A DNA stretch of 20,031 nt, taken from a virus. The notes beneath the pieces are model-generated. The model saw only the letters and a list, made by a program, of their open reading frames with translations, had not been told where the DNA came from and did not search any database. Positions 8,514-17,114 of the stretch are shown here, piece by piece. Within the stretch, counting starts at the first letter, position 1, and each line of letters begins with the position of its first letter. Position numbers and translations under genes: made by a program. Location: IMG/VR virus record IMGVR_UViG_3300031658_000201, positions 1 to 20,031 of that record; one strand, written 5' to 3'.

Positions 8514-8547
8514 AAAAAAGGGACCCAACGTTTGATCATTGAGTCCC
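8514..8547 (-). terminator. Rho-independent terminator after the capsid gene
   Basis: In minus-strand RNA, GGGACUCAA pairs with UUGGGUCCC (nine pairs, one G-U) across a 10-base loop, followed at once by six U. It lies between the capsid gene and the tail adaptor. Partial termination here would make capsid mRNA more abundant than tail mRNA, the arrangement known from T7 (Tphi after gene 10). Confidence 0.85.
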
Positions 8548-8561
8548 TAATGAGTTCCTAA

Positions 8562-8585: not shown

Positions 8586-9614
8586 TTATACAGCGTATAT
8601 GCAATAAGCAACAGCTAATGATTCATCTTTAATCACAGCGCGACCATATACGTGTAAACCACGTACGATATCAGCGAAGGTCTTCTCAGAACGAATCTTC
8701 TCCATCTTATCAATGCAGCTAACAGTAGCTACAGCAGACATATGACCAGCCATTACGATATCACCGATAACACCGCCGTCATCAATAGTACCACCAGTGT
8801 ACTTGACTACGTTAGTTTGATCTTGAGCAGTTACTGAACTACCTGCAACATCCATAAGAGTGAAGCGCGGAGCGTTGTTAGTCTTATACAAAGAGAAACC
8901 ACGTAGCTTGCCATTCATAACAAGACCGTTCTTCAAACCACCTTCACCCTGATTGTAATCAGTAGAAAGTAATTTAGAGTCTGTACGAGCAAGTAATTCC
9001 ATGAAGCGAGGAGAAACTACAGCGTAGCGGCCTTCTTCAGGAACTTCAGCTTCATCTAGCTTTAAGCTAAGTAAAGACAAAAGGTTCAAAGGGTCAGTAT
9101 CACTTGAACCGTGGCCCAAAGTAATAACTGCGCCATCATCAGCAGCAGCAAGGTGAGAAGCAGCACCACCAACGATGTTAGCAACCTGTGCACCCTGTGA
9201 CATAAAGGTAAGAACCTCTTTATCATAAGTATTCTTAAGTGCATAAGTAGCACCAGAAGTAGCCATCTGTTCCCAGTTAACGTGAGCTAATTTACCTTCA
9301 ATGTCGTCAATTTGGAACTGAAACTTGTTCGCTTTATCGATTTGAATAGTAGTCTCGTTATCTGCTAAAGCTTCACTAGCGACTTCTTGGCCACGAGTAT
9401 AAGATGTAACACTGATAACAGGTTCTAGGATTATCTTGACTGAATCACCGTAAGACGCTAGTTCACCAAAGTAATCACTGTTAGTAATACCTTCAACAAC
9501 TGAAGCTGTACGGAAAAAGTTTAATACCTTCTGAGAGAAGATAATAGGTGAAAAGTTACCTGAAGGGCTGTTGGCACTAAAGTTAGTAGTAGCCGAGCCG
9601 TTAAAATATGACAT
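8586..9614 (-). CDS. Major capsid protein
   Basis: The gene lies between the scaffold and a terminator, the standard place for a capsid gene. ATG is preceded by AAAGGATAG. The 342-aa protein begins with a Ser/Asn/Gly-rich arm. It then has VLNFFRTASVVEGITNSDYF, GDSVKIILEPVISVTSYTRG and an IQIDKANKFQFQIDDIEG stretch followed by NWEQMATSGATYALKNTYDK. That order matches an HK97-fold E-loop/spine-helix region as seen in podovirus coat proteins. Later segments (EEGRYAVVSPRFMELLART, the MAGHMSAVATVSCID region, RGLHVYGRAVIK) fit the A-domain and closing strand. Coding looks more uniform and less CTAG-rich than its neighbours, as expected for a highly expressed gene, though I did not count codons. Confidence 0.92.
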   Translation of the reverse strand: MSYFNGSATTNFSANSPSGNFSPIIFSQKVLNFFRTASVVEGITNSDYFGELASYGDSVKIILEPVISVTSYTRGQEVASEALADNETTIQIDKANKFQFQIDDIEGKLAHVNWEQMATSGATYALKNTYDKEVLTFMSQGAQVANIVGGAASHLAAADDGAVITLGHGSSDTDPLNLLSLLSLKLDEAEVPEEGRYAVVSPRFMELLARTDSKLLSTDYNQGEGGLKNGLVMNGKLRGFSLYKTNNAPRFTLMDVAGSSVTAQDQTNVVKYTGGTIDDGGVIGDIVMAGHMSAVATVSCIDKMEKIRSEKTFADIVRGLHVYGRAVIKDESLAVAYCIYAV

Positions 9615-10479: not shown

Positions 10480-10568
10480 TGTATTCTCCGTCTAGGTCGT
10501 CCGTGTGAGGTACCAAAAGGATCTCTTACTTCAGGGTGCTAGTATTTGATTGATGGTAGAGAGGTTCG

Positions 10569-10787
10569 TTATGATCTCTCTTCCGTTTTAAGTTGTGAGT
10601 GTAGTTTAGAAATATTATCCAGAGTACTAATAGCACCTTGGGTTTTCTTAAGCTCACTCTCATTGCAATTTAGTAATATAAGAACGAGTCTTTCCTTCTC
10701 AGCGGACAGATATTCTTCCATTAAATACCACAAAGGCCCCTTGAGTAAGGGAGCCAATGCTTTTGCTGGTGATTTACGTACCTCCAT
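10569..10787 (-). CDS. 72-aa protein between portal and scaffold
   Basis: The ATG overlaps the portal stop by one base (TAATG). The protein is helical and charged: a first amphipathic helix (KALAPLLKGPLWYLMEEYL), a second (EKERLVLILLNCNESELKK) and a third toward the C-terminus. Small helical proteins of this kind are common between portal and scaffold genes in marine podoviruses, but I cannot name a function. The coupling to portal translation argues that it is real and made at similar levels. A role in procapsid assembly is inferred only from position. Confidence 0.75.
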   Translation of the reverse strand: MEVRKSPAKALAPLLKGPLWYLMEEYLSAEKERLVLILLNCNESELKKTQGAISTLDNISKLHSQLKTEERS

Positions 10788-12952
10788 TATACTCCCTCGG
10801 CGTTTCCTGCGCCCTCAGTGTTCGCTGTGGCGTTTGAAGTCCCGGGTGGCCCTTGGGGTACTGGAGCGCCTTCTGTGGCCCCTGCGGCTCCCTGAGCGCC
10901 TCCTGCGGTACCAATGAGCTGTGCATATATCTTAGCTTCATCCATATCGTTAATAGCTTCATTAGGATCCATATCTAAACCCTTAACATACTCCCTAACT
11001 AGATAAGACATCTTAATCATCGGAGCGATAGCAGGGTTAGCAGCTAGTTGTAGTAGGCCTGAGATTCTTTGTACTTTAATCTCGTTCTTAGTGAAGCTAC
11101 GGATACCAGTGGCTATTACTTCTAAATCACCTTTAGGTATGTTCTCGCTATTGAACTGTTGATTCCAGTAAAACAACATCTTACCCATTGGTTGTAACAT
11201 ATCATCATCAATGTTTCTCAACACTGTTTTAATGTTAAGACTAGCGTTCTCTAGTATCATGTTAAGACCAGAAGCTGTACGTCCGGTCCCACTGACGCCT
11301 GTTTGACCGTGGGAAACCGATGGGATACCTGTGGCTTCATCAGCTTGCCTACGGAACTGTTCCATCATCTGTATATTCTCATTAGCAGTAGAAGGGAACT
11401 TGATAGCATGTACAGCAGCGCCGGGTTGTCCACCTTGTCTACGGAATATCTTACCGGGGTGTACCGACATATCCTGACCGGGAACTAGCATAGTTTCATC
11501 TACATCTAGTATAACGTTACCTGCTAATGCTAAGTTATCTACAGCTAGTCTAGCAAAACCATTCATCATCTTCTGGGCGTCTTCCATTGTTTCTGGGACA
11601 CCAATACCGTATAAGTTGTAAGGGTTCTGTTCATAGTTCATTAAGAAGTAAGGTAATCTCTTAGGTAAGAAAGGATTAACCATAACACGTAATATCTCAC
11701 TACCACATAACCAAAGGTTAACTTGAACCTGACCTGTTATATCATCTACGAAATCCACTAAGCCATGTTCGTGGGCTTCCTCGGAACTCATGTAACCCCA
11801 GTATTCTAGTACTTCCCATAGTCGACCTTTATTCATGGATACGTCTTTTTCCCGTACCTCAAACTCAAACCGCCTGTCTACGTAGTTACTACCTGAAACA
11901 ATACACTTATCAATTACATCTGCCTTGAATAGTTCCCTAGCCTTAAGGTCTCTAAGTTGTTTAGCAGTCATACGGTGTCTTTCTATTACCCATTCAGCAT
12001 CATCAAATTGCATAGCATTAGGGTCAATATATAAATCCCAGCAAGAGATAGCATGTATCTTAGGAAACTTCTTAGTTTCAGGGGTATACTTTCCTTCTGT
12101 CCATTTAGGTAATACTTTCTTCTCAGTAAATACACCCTTCATGATACCAGTACCCAACAAGCAGGCTTCAAACACAGAAGACCTAAGTTCTTTATGTGCG
12201 TTGCTTTCTTCCAGCTGATCCAGTATAACCTTAGTCATCTGCTCTGCTGCTCTACCACTAGGAGACATCTGAGAGAACTGAGTACCATCACTCTTATCAT
12301 GTCCTTCATTCATACTAGCATATAGAGGGTCTGACTTTTTCCAAGAGAGAGAATCCATACCAGAGCCGGGTTCTAGTTCCCTACCATCACCTTCAAAACC
12401 TAAACCAAAGTCTTCTTGGGAATCTCCTTGAGAAGGTCCCTCAGGAACCTCTTGTCCTTCTTCAGGACCACTCTGGTTTCCCGGGGCATTCGTTACAACT
12501 GAAGGAACTCCATCAGGAACAGGGGTTGGTTCAATCATTAGAGGGAAACGTGAGTTCTGCATTAAGGACTCCATAATCTGCGAGTAAGCAGCACGGGTCT
12601 TTACAGTAGTTGTTCTTATGTAAGGTTTGTGTATTTCTGATTCACGGAATAAAGATTGACCTTGGTTCTTATCACCAGAGATATCATCCTCAGCACGATA
12701 TGCTTTTATATTCTTTAACCATTGAGCTTCAACATTGATACGAGCATTCTCTGCTTCTTCCAAGTTTCCCTTAATACGAGCTACTAGGGGAGACATCATC
12801 TGTTGTAGTTCTTCTTCCGGGGATACCTTACTCCCATCTACTGTGGGTTGTACTTGGGATTCCTCGGGTTGTACTTGATTTGCAAAAGGGTTATTCTCTT
12901 CTTCTTTCTTCTTCGGTTTTGTTATTAGTGATTTACTGGTTTTAGTGTCCAT
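10787..12952 (-). CDS. Portal protein
   Basis: Strong AAGGAG six bases upstream of ATG. At 721 aa the length fits podovirus portals of the P22/N4 kind. After a charged, disordered ~45-residue N-terminus comes a helical region. Residues ~142-232 form a Pro/Gly/Glu/Asp-rich insertion. The core follows: HAISCWDLYIDPNAMQFDDA, KRLPYFLMNYEQNPYNLYG with GVPE, and DEATGIPSVSHG followed by GRTASGLNMILENAS, motifs recurrent in podovirus portals. The last ~42 residues are low-complexity Gly/Ala/Pro/Gln. It forms the dodecameric DNA channel and docks TerL outside and the adaptor after packaging. The acidic insertion and the tail are likely disordered loops. Confidence 0.92.
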   Translation of the reverse strand: MDTKTSKSLITKPKKKEEENNPFANQVQPEESQVQPTVDGSKVSPEEELQQMMSPLVARIKGNLEEAENARINVEAQWLKNIKAYRAEDDISGDKNQGQSLFRESEIHKPYIRTTTVKTRAAYSQIMESLMQNSRFPLMIEPTPVPDGVPSVVTNAPGNQSGPEEGQEVPEGPSQGDSQEDFGLGFEGDGRELEPGSGMDSLSWKKSDPLYASMNEGHDKSDGTQFSQMSPSGRAAEQMTKVILDQLEESNAHKELRSSVFEACLLGTGIMKGVFTEKKVLPKWTEGKYTPETKKFPKIHAISCWDLYIDPNAMQFDDAEWVIERHRMTAKQLRDLKARELFKADVIDKCIVSGSNYVDRRFEFEVREKDVSMNKGRLWEVLEYWGYMSSEEAHEHGLVDFVDDITGQVQVNLWLCGSEILRVMVNPFLPKRLPYFLMNYEQNPYNLYGIGVPETMEDAQKMMNGFARLAVDNLALAGNVILDVDETMLVPGQDMSVHPGKIFRRQGGQPGAAVHAIKFPSTANENIQMMEQFRRQADEATGIPSVSHGQTGVSGTGRTASGLNMILENASLNIKTVLRNIDDDMLQPMGKMLFYWNQQFNSENIPKGDLEVIATGIRSFTKNEIKVQRISGLLQLAANPAIAPMIKMSYLVREYVKGLDMDPNEAINDMDEAKIYAQLIGTAGGAQGAAGATEGAPVPQGPPGTSNATANTEGAGNAEGV

Positions 12953-13014
12953 TAAGAACTCCTTATATTAGTTAAAGTAAGGAGCATTGCGCTCAGGGGA
13001 AAAACGGGAAAGAC

Positions 13015-13054: not shown

Positions 13055-15088
13055 CTAACTGAAGTAGCCTTGGTATCTTTTATCTTCTTGTGCGGAGGTT
13101 TTATACCTCATGTTTCTTTCAGCAATAGTAAGATGAGAAGGACGAGAACTACACATATAACGTAAGCAATCTAACATATCCCAATGATGCATACGACCCT
13201 TGGTTTTTATACGTTTCTCATCGATATCATCAGGCTTCTTATCATTACGTCTAGCAGAAGCTAATTGGTCGATAAGTAGAACACAGGAGCTATGGATAAG
13301 AATACCCGTGAGACCTGTGTCTGGGTCGACCAGTAATCTATTGTGTATTTGGTTCCATCCTGCCTCACGGTTCCTATCAGCGGGTTTAGGTACTAACCCT
13401 TGTTTCGCTATTATCTCTCGAACCCCGGGACCTGTGTGTCCTGTGTTATTAAACACTGAGTGATCGATAACCCTAGAAACCCCTTGAGGTAAAAACCCTT
13501 CAGCTTCCTTAACAGCTATTGCCCACTTCTCGTGAACATGATGTAAACACTCTAACTCTTGGTATACAAATAGTAAACCTGTGGTAGGGCATATTTGACC
13601 CCAAAGACTACAAGCAGGGTCTTTAAAACCATAATCCAGACTGTTTATAACAGACCAATGCATAGGAGGCATCTCATCAGTAACATGTACGTGAGTACTG
13701 AAGGTGAACATATTGTCATCCCCAACCATCCAATCACCTTCCAACATCTGTTTACGTTTGACCTCAGGCAAAGCCATGAGCATCTTACGGTAAGGAGATA
13801 TCGTTTGTCCTTCTTTAGGTGTATCTAGGTGAGGGTTATCCTCTAGTTTCGCAGGTATAAATCTATAAGAGAGACCATCTGCGTAGAAAGTAGTATTAGG
13901 TTCAGCAGGGTCAATAAAGGTCTCTTTAACCCAAGGCGCACCACCCGGGTTAGCTGATGCTCTTATGTAGCAATCAATATTAGGATTAGCTGAACGAAGT
14001 CTTGATTTAAGAAACACGAAACCTTCATCGCTCCTTTGGTGCTGAATCTCATCAAATCCGATGTAAGCATAGGGAAGTCCTTGGTAGTTTTCTAGATCTT
14101 CGGCTCTATCTAAGTAACCGAACTGTATGGTAGCCCCTGAAGGAAAGTACCAGACGTTCTCTGATTTGTTGTAGTTAGCTCCGGGAAAAGCTTTGGGGTA
14201 TAATGTTCTACTAACGCCTATCAGTTCTTTAAGCATGGGAGACGTACGTCTAATTAGGAGTCCCCTATAATCTTCATACTGACAGTACCTAAGAACATCT
14301 ATAAGCATGGCGTAACTTTTACCGCCGCCCGCCGCACCTCCATACAATACTATATCCTCCCCCGCAGAATGAAACTCAGCTTGCTTTGGTGTGGGTTCAT
14401 ATAGTACTTTCTTATTCTGAGCTTTAATCTCTGCTACGTGTTCTGAAACAGATGAGGCTATCTTACTTTTACTTTTGGTACGTAAATCAGCAATTACTTC
14501 CGAGGGTTTACTAGTCTTAGCAGCTATCTTGGCTAAACGTCTGCGACTAAGTTCTAGTTCTTTAGTTGCGGTCTTAACATCCCTGCGACCATTGGCTACC
14601 TTTCTGGCTTCTGCTAACTGTTTATTCTGTGCCTCAGTAAAATTAGAACTTCTCTTCCTCCCATTGGCTTCATTAATAGCTCTCTGTTTATCTGCACGTA
14701 CTGTTTCTGCTTTACGTTTATCTTTAAGGTTTAACTTAGTCTCAGCACGATTCCATATGTTGTTAAGCTGACCTTGGGAACTAACGACATAACCTAGGCT
14801 TTCTAGATTAACCACGCTCTGTTTAACAGTGGTCGTTTTAGTATACCTGTTAGCTATCATTGCTTGAATATAAGGAACATATTTCTCTAGTATAGGTAAA
14901 TAGAATCCTTTAGTATCCGTGGGTTCATGTGCTAAGGGGTGTTTAATAGAACGTACTGGGTTAAACAATAGCATTCTTAGATCACTATCTAGATCCTTAT
15001 TCAATTCATACATCTTTTCTAACACATGTTCACTAGGGTAACCTAATTTAGGGTTGCCATAGGTCTTGAGAGTCTCTAGGAGGTTCAT
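13055..15088 (-). CDS. terL: Terminase large subunit with ~225-aa N-terminal extension
   Basis: It is the packaging motor ATPase and headful/site nuclease. AGGA precedes ATG by eight bases. Motifs visible: Walker A GGAAGGGKS (250-258), Walker B YIGFDEI (342-348), coupling motif SANPGG (378-383), then RNase H-like nuclease acidic residues at LDYG (D485), VIDH (D542) and HHWDMLD (D637/D640). The ATPase domain begins only near residue 230. The preceding part has an N-terminal region with a possible helix-turn-helix (TTTVKQSVVNLESLGYVVS, ~85-103) and a Lys/Arg/Ala-rich helical stretch (~115-225). TerL proteins usually start close to their ATPase domain, so this extension is unusual. It may bind DNA or TerS. 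No frameshift is seen. Confidence 0.95.
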   Translation of the reverse strand: MNLLETLKTYGNPKLGYPSEHVLEKMYELNKDLDSDLRMLLFNPVRSIKHPLAHEPTDTKGFYLPILEKYVPYIQAMIANRYTKTTTVKQSVVNLESLGYVVSSQGQLNNIWNRAETKLNLKDKRKAETVRADKQRAINEANGRKRSSNFTEAQNKQLAEARKVANGRRDVKTATKELELSRRRLAKIAAKTSKPSEVIADLRTKSKSKIASSVSEHVAEIKAQNKKVLYEPTPKQAEFHSAGEDIVLYGGAAGGGKSYAMLIDVLRYCQYEDYRGLLIRRTSPMLKELIGVSRTLYPKAFPGANYNKSENVWYFPSGATIQFGYLDRAEDLENYQGLPYAYIGFDEIQHQRSDEGFVFLKSRLRSANPNIDCYIRASANPGGAPWVKETFIDPAEPNTTFYADGLSYRFIPAKLEDNPHLDTPKEGQTISPYRKMLMALPEVKRKQMLEGDWMVGDDNMFTFSTHVHVTDEMPPMHWSVINSLDYGFKDPACSLWGQICPTTGLLFVYQELECLHHVHEKWAIAVKEAEGFLPQGVSRVIDHSVFNNTGHTGPGVREIIAKQGLVPKPADRNREAGWNQIHNRLLVDPDTGLTGILIHSSCVLLIDQLASARRNDKKPDDIDEKRIKTKGRMHHWDMLDCLRYMCSSRPSHLTIAERNMRYKTSAQEDKRYQGYFS

Positions 15089-15120: not shown

Positions 15121-15549
15121 CTAGGTCTCTGGGGTTATATCCTCGTAGGAAGCTTCTAAGGCCTCCTGAGTAGGTACTATACTTTTACCGGGTAGCAGGA
15201 ATATACCATTAGTACTCTCAATCTGCACATCCACAGCAGTATGACGTGTTAGGCCTGCTCTATCCATGATATCAGCACTCGCTTTTAGCCTTAACTCACC
15301 TTTCTCGGTGTTAGCATCAGCAGACATCATATCAACCATAGTATTCACAGCTTTAACTGTGCCTAGAACAAGTCTATCACGTTGCCTTTCTAGTATTTCA
15401 TCCTTTAACTGCTTACCTAACCTATAAGCGTAGGTCCTACTACATTCAAGTTTATCTGCTATCACTGCTATGGGGTCCCCTTCTTCAAGTAACTCCATGA
15501 ATAACTCATGTTTTGCCGTGAGTACAGTGGGTGCTGTGGTTTTACTCAT
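15121..15549 (-). CDS. terS: Terminase small subunit
   Basis: It lies immediately upstream of terL and starts by TAATG overlap with the sigma-like gene; AGGA precedes ATG by eight bases. The 142-aa protein has an N-terminal helix-turn-helix (~12-50: HELFMELLEEGDPIAVIADK, then CSRTYAYRLGKQL), a central helical oligomerisation region (~50-100, ending RLKASADIMDRAGLTRHT), and a C-terminal tail with IFLLPGK. This is the usual architecture of small terminases, which recognise viral DNA and form a ring that loads TerL. The identification rests on layout plus location. Confidence 0.85.
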   Translation of the reverse strand: MSKTTAPTVLTAKHELFMELLEEGDPIAVIADKLECSRTYAYRLGKQLKDEILERQRDRLVLGTVKAVNTMVDMMSADANTEKGELRLKASADIMDRAGLTRHTAVDVQIESTNGIFLLPGKSIVPTQEALEASYEDITPET

Positions 15550-16088
15550 TATATTTTTCCTAGAATTCTATTTATAGAACTACGAAGTTTAACTTTAAGT
15601 CTTCTTAGGGTACGTTCGTCCATCCCTAGTTCCTTAGCGATAGCCTCATTAGTAGCATCACTGTTAATTAGTAAGTAGAAGCTGAATGTTTCATCGCTTA
15701 ACTCAGTAAACAGGAGAAGTTCCAAATCTCTTAGGTGATCGGAGGAATCTCCTTCAATTAAGGATTCTCTATCAGAGGTAGAACCATCTTCAGGGTTAAC
15801 CAAAGGCTTAAGGTCCTTTACTACTATTCTTCCTTTTCTATATAAATCAGAGAAGATACTAGCGGTTGCCATCTTAACATAGCGATACGTTAGGTACTCG
15901 GGTTTCGCTGCTAATACTTTCTCACATATAGACATTATGATATCTTCATTAGTAAGCATATCGTCTATGTTGTGAAGGGAGGCGTTGGGGTTAGCTTTAG
16001 GAAGCAGGTTATTAACACATTCTGAAGCAGCTCGTAGTAGTTCTTCTATTGGGAGTACTATGGTGCTTGGGGGTAATTCTTTTAACAT
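15549..16088 (-). CDS. Sigma-70-like (ECF-type) helix-turn-helix protein
   Basis: This is the first gene of the morphogenesis operon, about 30 bases downstream of a near-consensus promoter, coupled to terS by TAATG. The 179-aa protein follows a two-domain ECF sigma layout. Residues ~45-86 resemble region 2 (TNEDIIMSICEKVL, then YVKMATASIFSDLYRKGR, comparable to the 'EDi...v....f..Wly.iarN...D..Rr..r' pattern). A polar linker (~90-118) follows, then region 4 (~120-175: LELLLFTELSDETFSFYLLI, then ATNEAIAKELGMDERTLRRL and KVKLRSSI), a clear helix-turn-helix. ECF factors bind core RNA polymerase and direct it to specific promoters. Here it could redirect transcription to phage genes. It could also be a DNA-binding packaging or regulatory protein that only resembles sigma factors; similarity is by eye. 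Confidence 0.65.
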   Translation of the reverse strand: MLKELPPSTIVLPIEELLRAASECVNNLLPKANPNASLHNIDDMLTNEDIIMSICEKVLAAKPEYLTYRYVKMATASIFSDLYRKGRIVVKDLKPLVNPEDGSTSDRESLIEGDSSDHLRDLELLLFTELSDETFSFYLLINSDATNEAIAKELGMDERTLRRLKVKLRSSINRILGKI

Positions 16089-16120: not shown

Positions 16121-16149
16121 ATCATAGCAGGTATTAGTTATACTGTCAA
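16121..16149 (-). promoter_or_regulatory. Sigma-70 promoter for the minus-strand virion operon
   Basis: On the minus strand TTGACA (complement of 16144-16149), a 17-base spacer and TATGAT (complement of 16121-16126) are present, with TG one base before the -10 (extended -10). Only one base deviates from the -35/-10 consensus. Transcription would start near 16113-16115, leaving a leader of about 25 bases to the sigma-like gene ATG. It reads as a strong host-type promoter. Confidence 0.85.
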
Positions 16150-16484
16150 GATAGTAATAGGGAACCTAGGTAAATAAGCGGCGCACATACAACCTAGGGA
16201 ACAATTGTTACTAAGGTAAACCTTACCTATAACATATGTTCACCGAGGTGTTAACTAAGTACTTACCTTCTAGTTCTACCTTCTAGTAATAAGAAGAGTT
16301 AAGAGGTAAGTTGGAAGGTAGTTAGTAAGTTATCTTTAGTTTGAACCTTTGTTGTACCTATGTTATTAACAAACGAGTTTACCCTGCTAATCGGACAGTT
16401 ATTTCTAAGATAATTACTTGGGGACTAGTGTTAACCTATGTATACATATCGCAATACCTATTAATTCGCCGGTTTCATGGGGTC

Positions 16485-16543
16485 CTTGGTATCCCTCGGT
16501 ATCCTTGGTATCCCTCGGTATCCCTTGGTATCGCAGGGTATCC
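16485..16543. repeat. Six ~10-bp tandem repeats (CTTGGTATCC type)
   Basis: Six consecutive 9-10-bp units end in GGTATCC or a close variant, alternating CTTGGTATCC and CTCGGTATCC; one unit has 9 bp and the fifth ends in G. The array begins just after a GGTTTCATGGGG stretch. Confidence 0.85.
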
Positions 16544-16626
16544 TGTAAGTGGGTGAAGTGAACTTTAGTTTCCGAGGGCGCTGGGCTAACGTCAACATTG
16601 GCACCCCGGGTGTCCCTTCGAAAACC

Positions 16627-16698
16627 ATGAAACCCGTGAAACCCGTGAAACCCGTGAAACCCGTGAAACCCATGAAACCCGTGAAACCCATGAAACCC
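16627..16698. repeat. Eight perfect-phase 9-bp tandem repeats (GTGAAACCC/ATGAAACCC)
   Basis: Eight 9-bp units with only the first base varying (G or A) run without interruption. Because 9 bp is three codons, an apparent minus-strand reading frame of Gly-Phe-Thr/Met repeats arises from it; it is treated as a by-product, not a gene. Confidence 0.9.
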
Positions 16699-16737
16699 GC
16701 GTAAACACTGGCTTTAAGCATTTGTGCGCAGTGGTTT

Positions 16738-16946
16738 ACCTAGGGTACTAATGTTACCTAGGTACTAATGTTACCGTCGATGTACGTGGTCTAAAACTGA
16801 GGTAAACCTAGGGTACTAATGTTACCTAGGGTACTAATGTTACCTAGGGTACTAATGTTACCTAGGGTACTAATGTTACCTAGGGTACTAATGTTACCTA
16901 GGGTACTAATGTTACCGTCAGTGTATGTGGTTTAAAACTGAGGTAA
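16738..16946. repeat. Composite array: 18-bp units with two 33-bp interspersed units
   Basis: The unit ACCTAGGGTACTAATGTT occurs at 16738-16755, with a 17-bp variant at 16756-16772. A 33-bp element follows at 16773-16805, six perfect 18-bp copies at 16806-16913, and a second 33-bp element at 16914-16946 that differs from the first at only a few positions. Each 18-bp unit contains TACC-TAG-GGTA, an inverted repeat. The iteron-like order suggests a binding site for a phage initiator or regulator; this is inference. Confidence 0.92.
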
Positions 16947-17061
16947 ACCTAGGGGTCATTTTGCGCCACACTCGGAACCCTAGGTAAACTTATTTAATTA
17001 ATGGACTCACCAGTCTAGTAAGTGCAGCCACTCCTTATTCACTGTAACGTTATCTTTACAC

Positions 17062-17114
17062 TGGTGAACCCTGGGAACCTATGGAACCTATGGAACCTGG
17101 GAACCCATGGAATC
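17062..17114. repeat. 9-bp degenerate tandem repeats (TATGGAACC type)
   Basis: Six units of 8-9 bp: TGGTGAACC, CTGGGAACC, TATGGAACC twice, TGGGAACC and CATGGAATC. The last unit contains the ATG of the doubtful 80-codon frame at 17107. Confidence 0.8.

Follow-up and report, generated by a model that had tools for sequence, protein, structure and literature searches.

The gene that heads the terminase run in a 20,031-nucleotide stretch of viral DNA (hereafter the window) is supported by profile, family and fold evidence as encoding a phage sigma factor of ECF architecture, in which a short linker connects regions 2 and 4. The protein is very probably a working sigma of some sort, for late or for other genes, and there is a probability of roughly 60% that it would redirect the host RNA polymerase to the virion and packaging (late) genes, a likely role by analogy with phiEco32 gp36 and 7-11 gp47, from which core binding, promoter choice and late timing are extrapolated. 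Sigma factors of the phage ECF type have been described before, in phiEco32 and 7-11; this gene represents a new family of that kind, with an unusual, constant location at the start of the terminase run, and it is carried by a marine, podovirus-like phage group in which it was previously unannotated.

Gene location and neighborhood

The initial annotation gave the correct coordinates for this gene (P0001; Table 1) and no strand; the open reading frame lies on the minus strand, with its ATG at 16088 and its stop codon at 15551-15549, and encodes 179 aa. The segments quoted there as sigma-like (DIIMSICEKVL, FSDLYRKGR, and ATNEAIAKELGMDERTLRRL) are all present in the order claimed. The stop codon of the sigma gene and the start codon of terS have one base in common (TAATG), and the minus-strand order is sigma, terS, terL, portal, a 72-aa ORF, a gene in the scaffold position, the major head protein gene, and tail genes. 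Upstream of the sigma gene lies a control region, with other genes leaving in the opposite direction, part of which is rich in short tandem repeats.

Table 1. Positions of the sigma gene, its neighbors, and other sequence elements (window coordinates unless a relative is named)
Feature	Position	Strand	Basis or remark
Control region 5' of the sigma gene	16089 to ~18556
Repeat-rich part of the control region	16484-17112
Tandem repeat GGAACCTAT	17074-17112
Tandem repeat TTACCTAGGGTACTAATG	16736-16916		10 copies
Tandem repeat GAAACCCGT	16620-16699		~9 copies
Tandem repeat CCTTGGTATC	16484-16543
Sigma-70 type promoter, TTGACA-17-TATGAT plus TG extension	16121-16149	-	weight-matrix scan; ~33 nt 5' of the sigma ATG
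ECF-like sigma factor gene (P0001), 179 aa	15549-16088	-	ORF plus profile, family, and fold evidence
Sigma region 2 (residues 13-87; core-binding/-10 part, LTNEDIIMSICEKVLAA...YVKMATASIFSDLYRKGR)	15828-16052	-
Sigma region 4 helix-turn-helix (residues 117-178)	15555-15740	-
terS, terminase small subunit	15121-15549	-	PHROG 2538, E 5.8e-6; 48% identity to G001 TerS
terL, terminase large subunit	13055-15088	-	PHROG 979, E 1.6e-58
Portal-leader hairpin	12982-12994	-
Portal/head-tail adaptor gene	10787-12952	-	PHROG 332, E 9.8e-81; Pfam SU10_portal
Scaffold-leader stem	10480-10582	-	end of 72-aa ORF, 5' of scaffold-position gene
Major head protein gene	8586-9614	-	PHROG 267, E 1.7e-52
Terminator-like hairpin	8519-8548	-	directly 3' of major head protein gene
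Pre-promoter hairpin in relatives	L002 3954-4015; L005 805-865; L007 4366-4433		also in seven other relatives
TerS N-terminal helix-turn-helix in G003	27962-28108	-	picked up by region-4 part of sigma profiles

Further elements lie among the virion genes. A small hairpin with a conserved GCAAY loop, seen both in the window and in 11 relatives ~20 bases 5' of the portal ribosome-binding site, has a strongly covarying stem (98.3% of cells paired, 16 double changes, 0 of 500 shuffles as high) and no match in Rfam, and is possibly a translational operator. The stem ahead of the scaffold-position gene apparently covaries as well, with arms AGAGAG/CTCTCT in the window and GAACAACG/CGTTGTTC or GAACAGAG/CTCTGTTC in relatives; it is followed by the conserved block CTAGAACTC..AAGGATC..GTACC..GACCTAGA, and the whole element resembles a structured leader for the capsid genes. 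The terminator-like hairpin behind the major head protein gene is kept in relatives (AAGGGATCC...GGGTCCCTTTTTT).

Sequence evidence for sigma regions 2 and 4

Taken alone, the window protein matches TIGR02937 (sigma70-ECF) over residues 47-174 with an E-value of 0.034 and PHROG 1740 (RNA polymerase sigma factor) with an E-value of 0.025, together with generic helix-turn-helix profiles, and it reaches no curated profile cut-off (13.8 versus 42.9 bits for TIGR02937). TIGR02937 is matched by all 16 family members (best 7e-15), and L016, at 55 bits, is the sole member among those with scores seen that passes the NCBI curated cut-off. As a yardstick, the proven phage sigma phiEco32 gp36 scores 23 bits with the same profile, itself under the cut-off, and the homologue in phage Slicky01 scores 34 bits; most of the family members tested equal or outscore gp36, several of them exceeding it, and the window protein scores lower.

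When region 2 is isolated, the fragments from 9/16 members match Pfam Sigma70_r2 (PF04542), at best with 1.4e-6, and no second family recurs among the matches. The window's own region-2 fragment has no direct Pfam match and is tied to Sigma70_r2 via the family, scoring 48 bits against a region-2 profile built from the remaining members, compared with at most 9.4 bits in 2000 shuffles. This score and the ungapped alignment of the window protein with the L003 homologue (166 aa, 30% identity, E 1e-20) argue that the sigma-like segments are not a chance pattern. Region 4 matches Sigma70_r4_2 (PF08281) in nine of the 16 members (best 2.6e-9), and its helix-turn-helix follows a short linker without a region 3 domain in proteins of 166-224 aa; the family profile and E. 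coli RpoE can be aligned across 126 columns (E 7.9e-5). Region 4 by itself is not diagnostic, since the TerS helix-turn-helix of G003 also matches region-4 profiles. A search of PDB sequences was dropped as support, because the whole-family profile matched mostly LuxR-type helix-turn-helix proteins and the region-2-only profile found no sigma at significance.

It is rather improbable that the protein is a sigma-derived DNA-binding protein which is no longer a sigma and which, through its region-4 helix-turn-helix and with a degraded region 2, represses or activates the divergent control region or takes part in packaging beside TerS. The divergence of the window member and the failure of Pfam to recognize its region 2 alone would fit such a protein, as would the replacement of the canonical Q by M in the D-x-x-Q-E motif of members of family alignment A1, the region-4-like helix-turn-helix in TerS of these phages, and the lack of a detectable sigma-specific promoter motif (see below). 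Region 2 would then be dispensable, whereas it is conserved like region 4 (25 and 26% identity, respectively, between the window and its relatives), with D49, M52, A61, and Y70 invariant in alignment A1; the Slicky01 and G006 homologues retain the canonical Q-E, in Slicky01 as a textbook ELTQETLLKL, and the presence of the sigma coincides with the lack of a phage polymerase.

Predicted structure

The window protein and the member in the complete G001 genome were modeled with AlphaFold2; both models have a mean pLDDT of 77 and show the helices in the expected order. Foldseek comparison with the PDB gave a best E-value of 4.4e-3 (probability 0.99) for the window model and 1.0e-3 (probability 1.00) for the G001 model, the latter led by the ECF factors SigL and SigH, and the best 50 matches listed were nearly all sigma factors in both cases. 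The E-values are modest, and the placement of the two domains relative to each other is uncertain in both models, so that whole-model TM-scores are low (~0.3). The AlphaFold comparison suggested in the initial annotation therefore yields, at the level of predicted folds, sigma factors as the PDB neighbors. The sigma reading proposed there is backed for regions 2 and 4 each by independent tests (TIGR02937, Sigma70_r2, Sigma70_r4_2, and Foldseek); sigma-family profiles were matched, and no terminase-type or other fold devoid of region 2 emerged.

A terminase component, in the form of an additional small-subunit-like protein with a helix-turn-helix that only looks like sigma region 4, is disfavored and very improbable. 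The gene does adjoin or overlap terS, and the window protein and a few members give weak, sub-significant matches to PHROG small terminases, but a separate conserved TerS is encoded between the sigma gene and terL, the region-2 fragments match Sigma70_r2 only, and the structural neighbors are sigma factors. In addition, Vibrio phage CHOED and Aeromonas phage MQM1 have terS and terL without the sigma gene, and a terminator parts the sigma gene from terS in many relatives (10/18).

Relatives and selection

Relatives were collected via the neighboring TerL, which gave 17 IMG/VR loci with TerL identities of 53-65%; an ORF of 166-224 aa lies directly 5' of terS in 16/16 of those with sufficient sequence, L012, whose sequence begins too near, having been left out of the count. 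With the window protein as the single query, a peptide-pattern scan gave no viral relatives and tblastn in phages gave chance matches only, a second sigma-profile scan of viral contigs found no members beyond the TerL group, and no TerL relatives were found in bacterial genome contigs. Along its full length, the window protein shares 22-29% identity with its relatives, and its match to the family reaches an E-value of 3e-17 over residues 12-177.

The family has a cultured representative in Slicky01, a phage of Pseudoalteromonas tunicata that microscopy identified as a podovirus (PMC10507051), where WGH49984.1 is encoded directly upstream of terS and belongs to the family with an E-value of 3e-49 (against a profile that contains WGH49984.1 itself). 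This protein is annotated as a hypothetical protein rather than as a sigma, and searching the main text of the isolation paper turned up no reference to a sigma factor (PMC10507051). It resembles the window protein in family, in position before terS, and in having a sigma-70 promoter upstream, and differs from it in the canonical Q-E of region 2 and in a terminator before terS. The 66-kb Slicky01-like contig G006 (locus L057) likewise has the sigma gene before terS. Conservation across homologous phages, one of the checks proposed in the initial annotation, thus extends over all 16 IMG/VR loci, Slicky01, and G006. The sigma gene is under purifying selection, with dN/dS values of 0.11-0.19 in most comparable pairs and one near-identical pair too close to judge.

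Promoter of the sigma gene and its junction with terS

The promoter directly upstream of the sigma gene is the top-scoring one in the window (14.3 versus 10.4 for the runner-up). The top-scoring promoters of other genomes lie at the same place, namely the best one in the complete genome of G001 and, in Slicky01, one of those tied for best, and TTGAC followed by a -10-like hexamer, of varying quality, precedes the sigma gene in every relative with sufficient sequence. Since this near-consensus sigma-70 promoter occurs in the window as in the relatives, the sigma gene is probably expressed by the host RNA polymerase carrying the host's primary sigma and would be made early by the unmodified enzyme; with a promoter of the host sigma-70 type, the gene itself probably belongs to the early or middle class, not to the late one.

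Just 5' of the -35 element, a hairpin with a loop of 30-43 bases occurs in 10/10 relatives examined, and its 6-bp outer arms change jointly (CTTAGG/CCTAAG, CTTGAG/CTCAAG, CTTGGG/CCCAAG); it is not evident in the window. Being located upstream of the promoter, it may be a DNA operator or a piece of a longer upstream transcript.

In the window, as in eight others, sigma and terS abut or almost abut, and no terminator was found before terS in the window. The initial description of the sigma gene as the first of the virion operon, coupled to terS, therefore stands for the window in both head position and coupling, but in 10/18 relatives, Slicky01 and G006 included, the two genes are separated by a hairpin and T run, so the sigma is not always in one transcription unit with terS. 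In Slicky01, ~26 bases separate this terminator from terS, which leaves little space for a separate late promoter.

The shared promoter motif that had been anticipated in the late intergenic gaps was not found: neither a search for repeated words in these gaps nor an alignment of intergenic regions in pairs, as had been done for 7-11 (PMC4331800), gave a sigma-specific motif, and both returned only terminators, sigma-70 (early) promoters, and repeats, covering few gaps with low power. Given this result, the terminator in 10/18 relatives, and the ~26-base gap, a late promoter may overlap the terminator or sit elsewhere, or the virion genes may receive read-through.

These observations bear on an unlikely, though by no means negligible, alternative, in which the sigma serves early or middle phage genes or host genes and the virion genes are read through from the upstream sigma-70 promoter. 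The strength of that promoter and the open junction with terS in the window would agree with it, as would the missing late-gap motif and the finding that the Slicky01 sigma promoter is approximately a copy of three others facing opposite-strand, early-type gene blocks. The terminator just past the sigma gene makes simple read-through a poor explanation in the 10 relatives that have it, and the comparable sigmas of phiEco32 and 7-11 serve late genes (PMC8948821).

Comparison with known systems and alternation with T7-type RNA polymerase

In the closest known systems, gp36 of phiEco32 and gp47 of Salmonella phage 7-11 bring the host core polymerase to late promoters, as shown in vitro for gp47; region 4 of gp36 has been described as non-homologous to other sigmas, and its promoters have a single element (tAATGTAtA), while gp47 is an ECF-like sigma with a region 4 and bipartite late promoters (PMC8948821). 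The gp36 protein of phiEco32 (Kuravirus) resembles the window sigma as a phage ECF-type factor of similar size and low TIGR02937 score range, and phiEco32 is a podovirus with a portal type related to that of the window (the window portal matches SU10_portal). In contrast, the gp36 gene lies in a middle-gene cluster on the strand opposite the virion genes (34166-34810), whereas the window sigma heads the terminase run, and the window family has a clear region 4, unlike gp36, with hhalign aligning region 4 only. The gp47 gene of 7-11 lies deep in a leftward gene cluster (37061-37618) and not before terS, and its product shows very weak similarity to the family profile (E 0.0035, probability 9%).

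Like phiEco32, the sigma-bearing relatives have no detectable T7-type RNA polymerase: PF00940 had no match in Slicky01, G001, G002, G003, and G006, and tblastn with the CHOED and MQM1 polymerases had none in G001, G002, G003, and Slicky01. Sigma-70-type promoters are present as well, so that these relatives agree with the phiEco32-type scheme of host sigma-70 early and no phage polymerase. G001 and G002 carry exact 127-base end repeats, as in circular assemblies. Each of the large replication-side proteins scanned in G001 either is assigned to something else or has no assignment, and no further transcription machinery was found in the complete phages of the window's kind; as the window is a 20-kb fragment, the absence of a polymerase is a finding on its relatives.

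Vibrio phage CHOED and Aeromonas phages MQM1 and 1233 resemble the window in their terminase, portal, and P22-type coat modules, which are related and identically ordered, but these phages have a gene for a T7-type RNA polymerase and lack any member of the sigma family. The CHOED polymerase gene is annotated with an interrupting intron (L048 47640-50000 / L020 1-630), and the MQM1 polymerase likewise appears as two separate matches. Four other phages, HMO-2011, HTVC033P, RHph_N3_19, and phiM6, have neither the sigma nor a T7-type polymerase. In the TerL tree, the sigma-bearing rows all fall on one side of a 100/99 branch and the polymerase-bearing rows on the other, so that a single gain or a single loss could account for the alternation, the tree being unrooted and the sample small (five sigma-bearing records, of which G003 is a fragment, and three polymerase-bearing records, of which MQM1 and 1233 are close relatives). 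It can tentatively be proposed that the late-transcription device is interchangeable among related virion modules, perhaps being a T7-type RNA polymerase in CHOED, MQM1, and 1233 and an ECF sigma at the head of the terminase operon, with the host enzyme throughout, in the window lineage.

Proposed function and implications

In the favored account of late-gene control, the host RNA polymerase with its primary sigma would transcribe the sigma gene from the near-consensus sigma-70 promoter, the sigma so produced would associate with the host core enzyme, and the loaded core would go to phage promoters, most likely those of the virion and packaging genes downstream; the sigma would in this way replace the T7-type RNA polymerase of phages with a related virion module. 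Biochemical demonstrations of phage ECF sigmas for late genes are few, phiEco32 and 7-11 among them, and the present family adds a whole unannotated group that has a constant genomic location and a cultured, testable representative, Slicky01 with Pseudoalteromonas tunicata. Its apparent alternation with T7-type RNA polymerase among phages with a similar virion module lets one ask how a phage lineage switches its late-transcription strategy.
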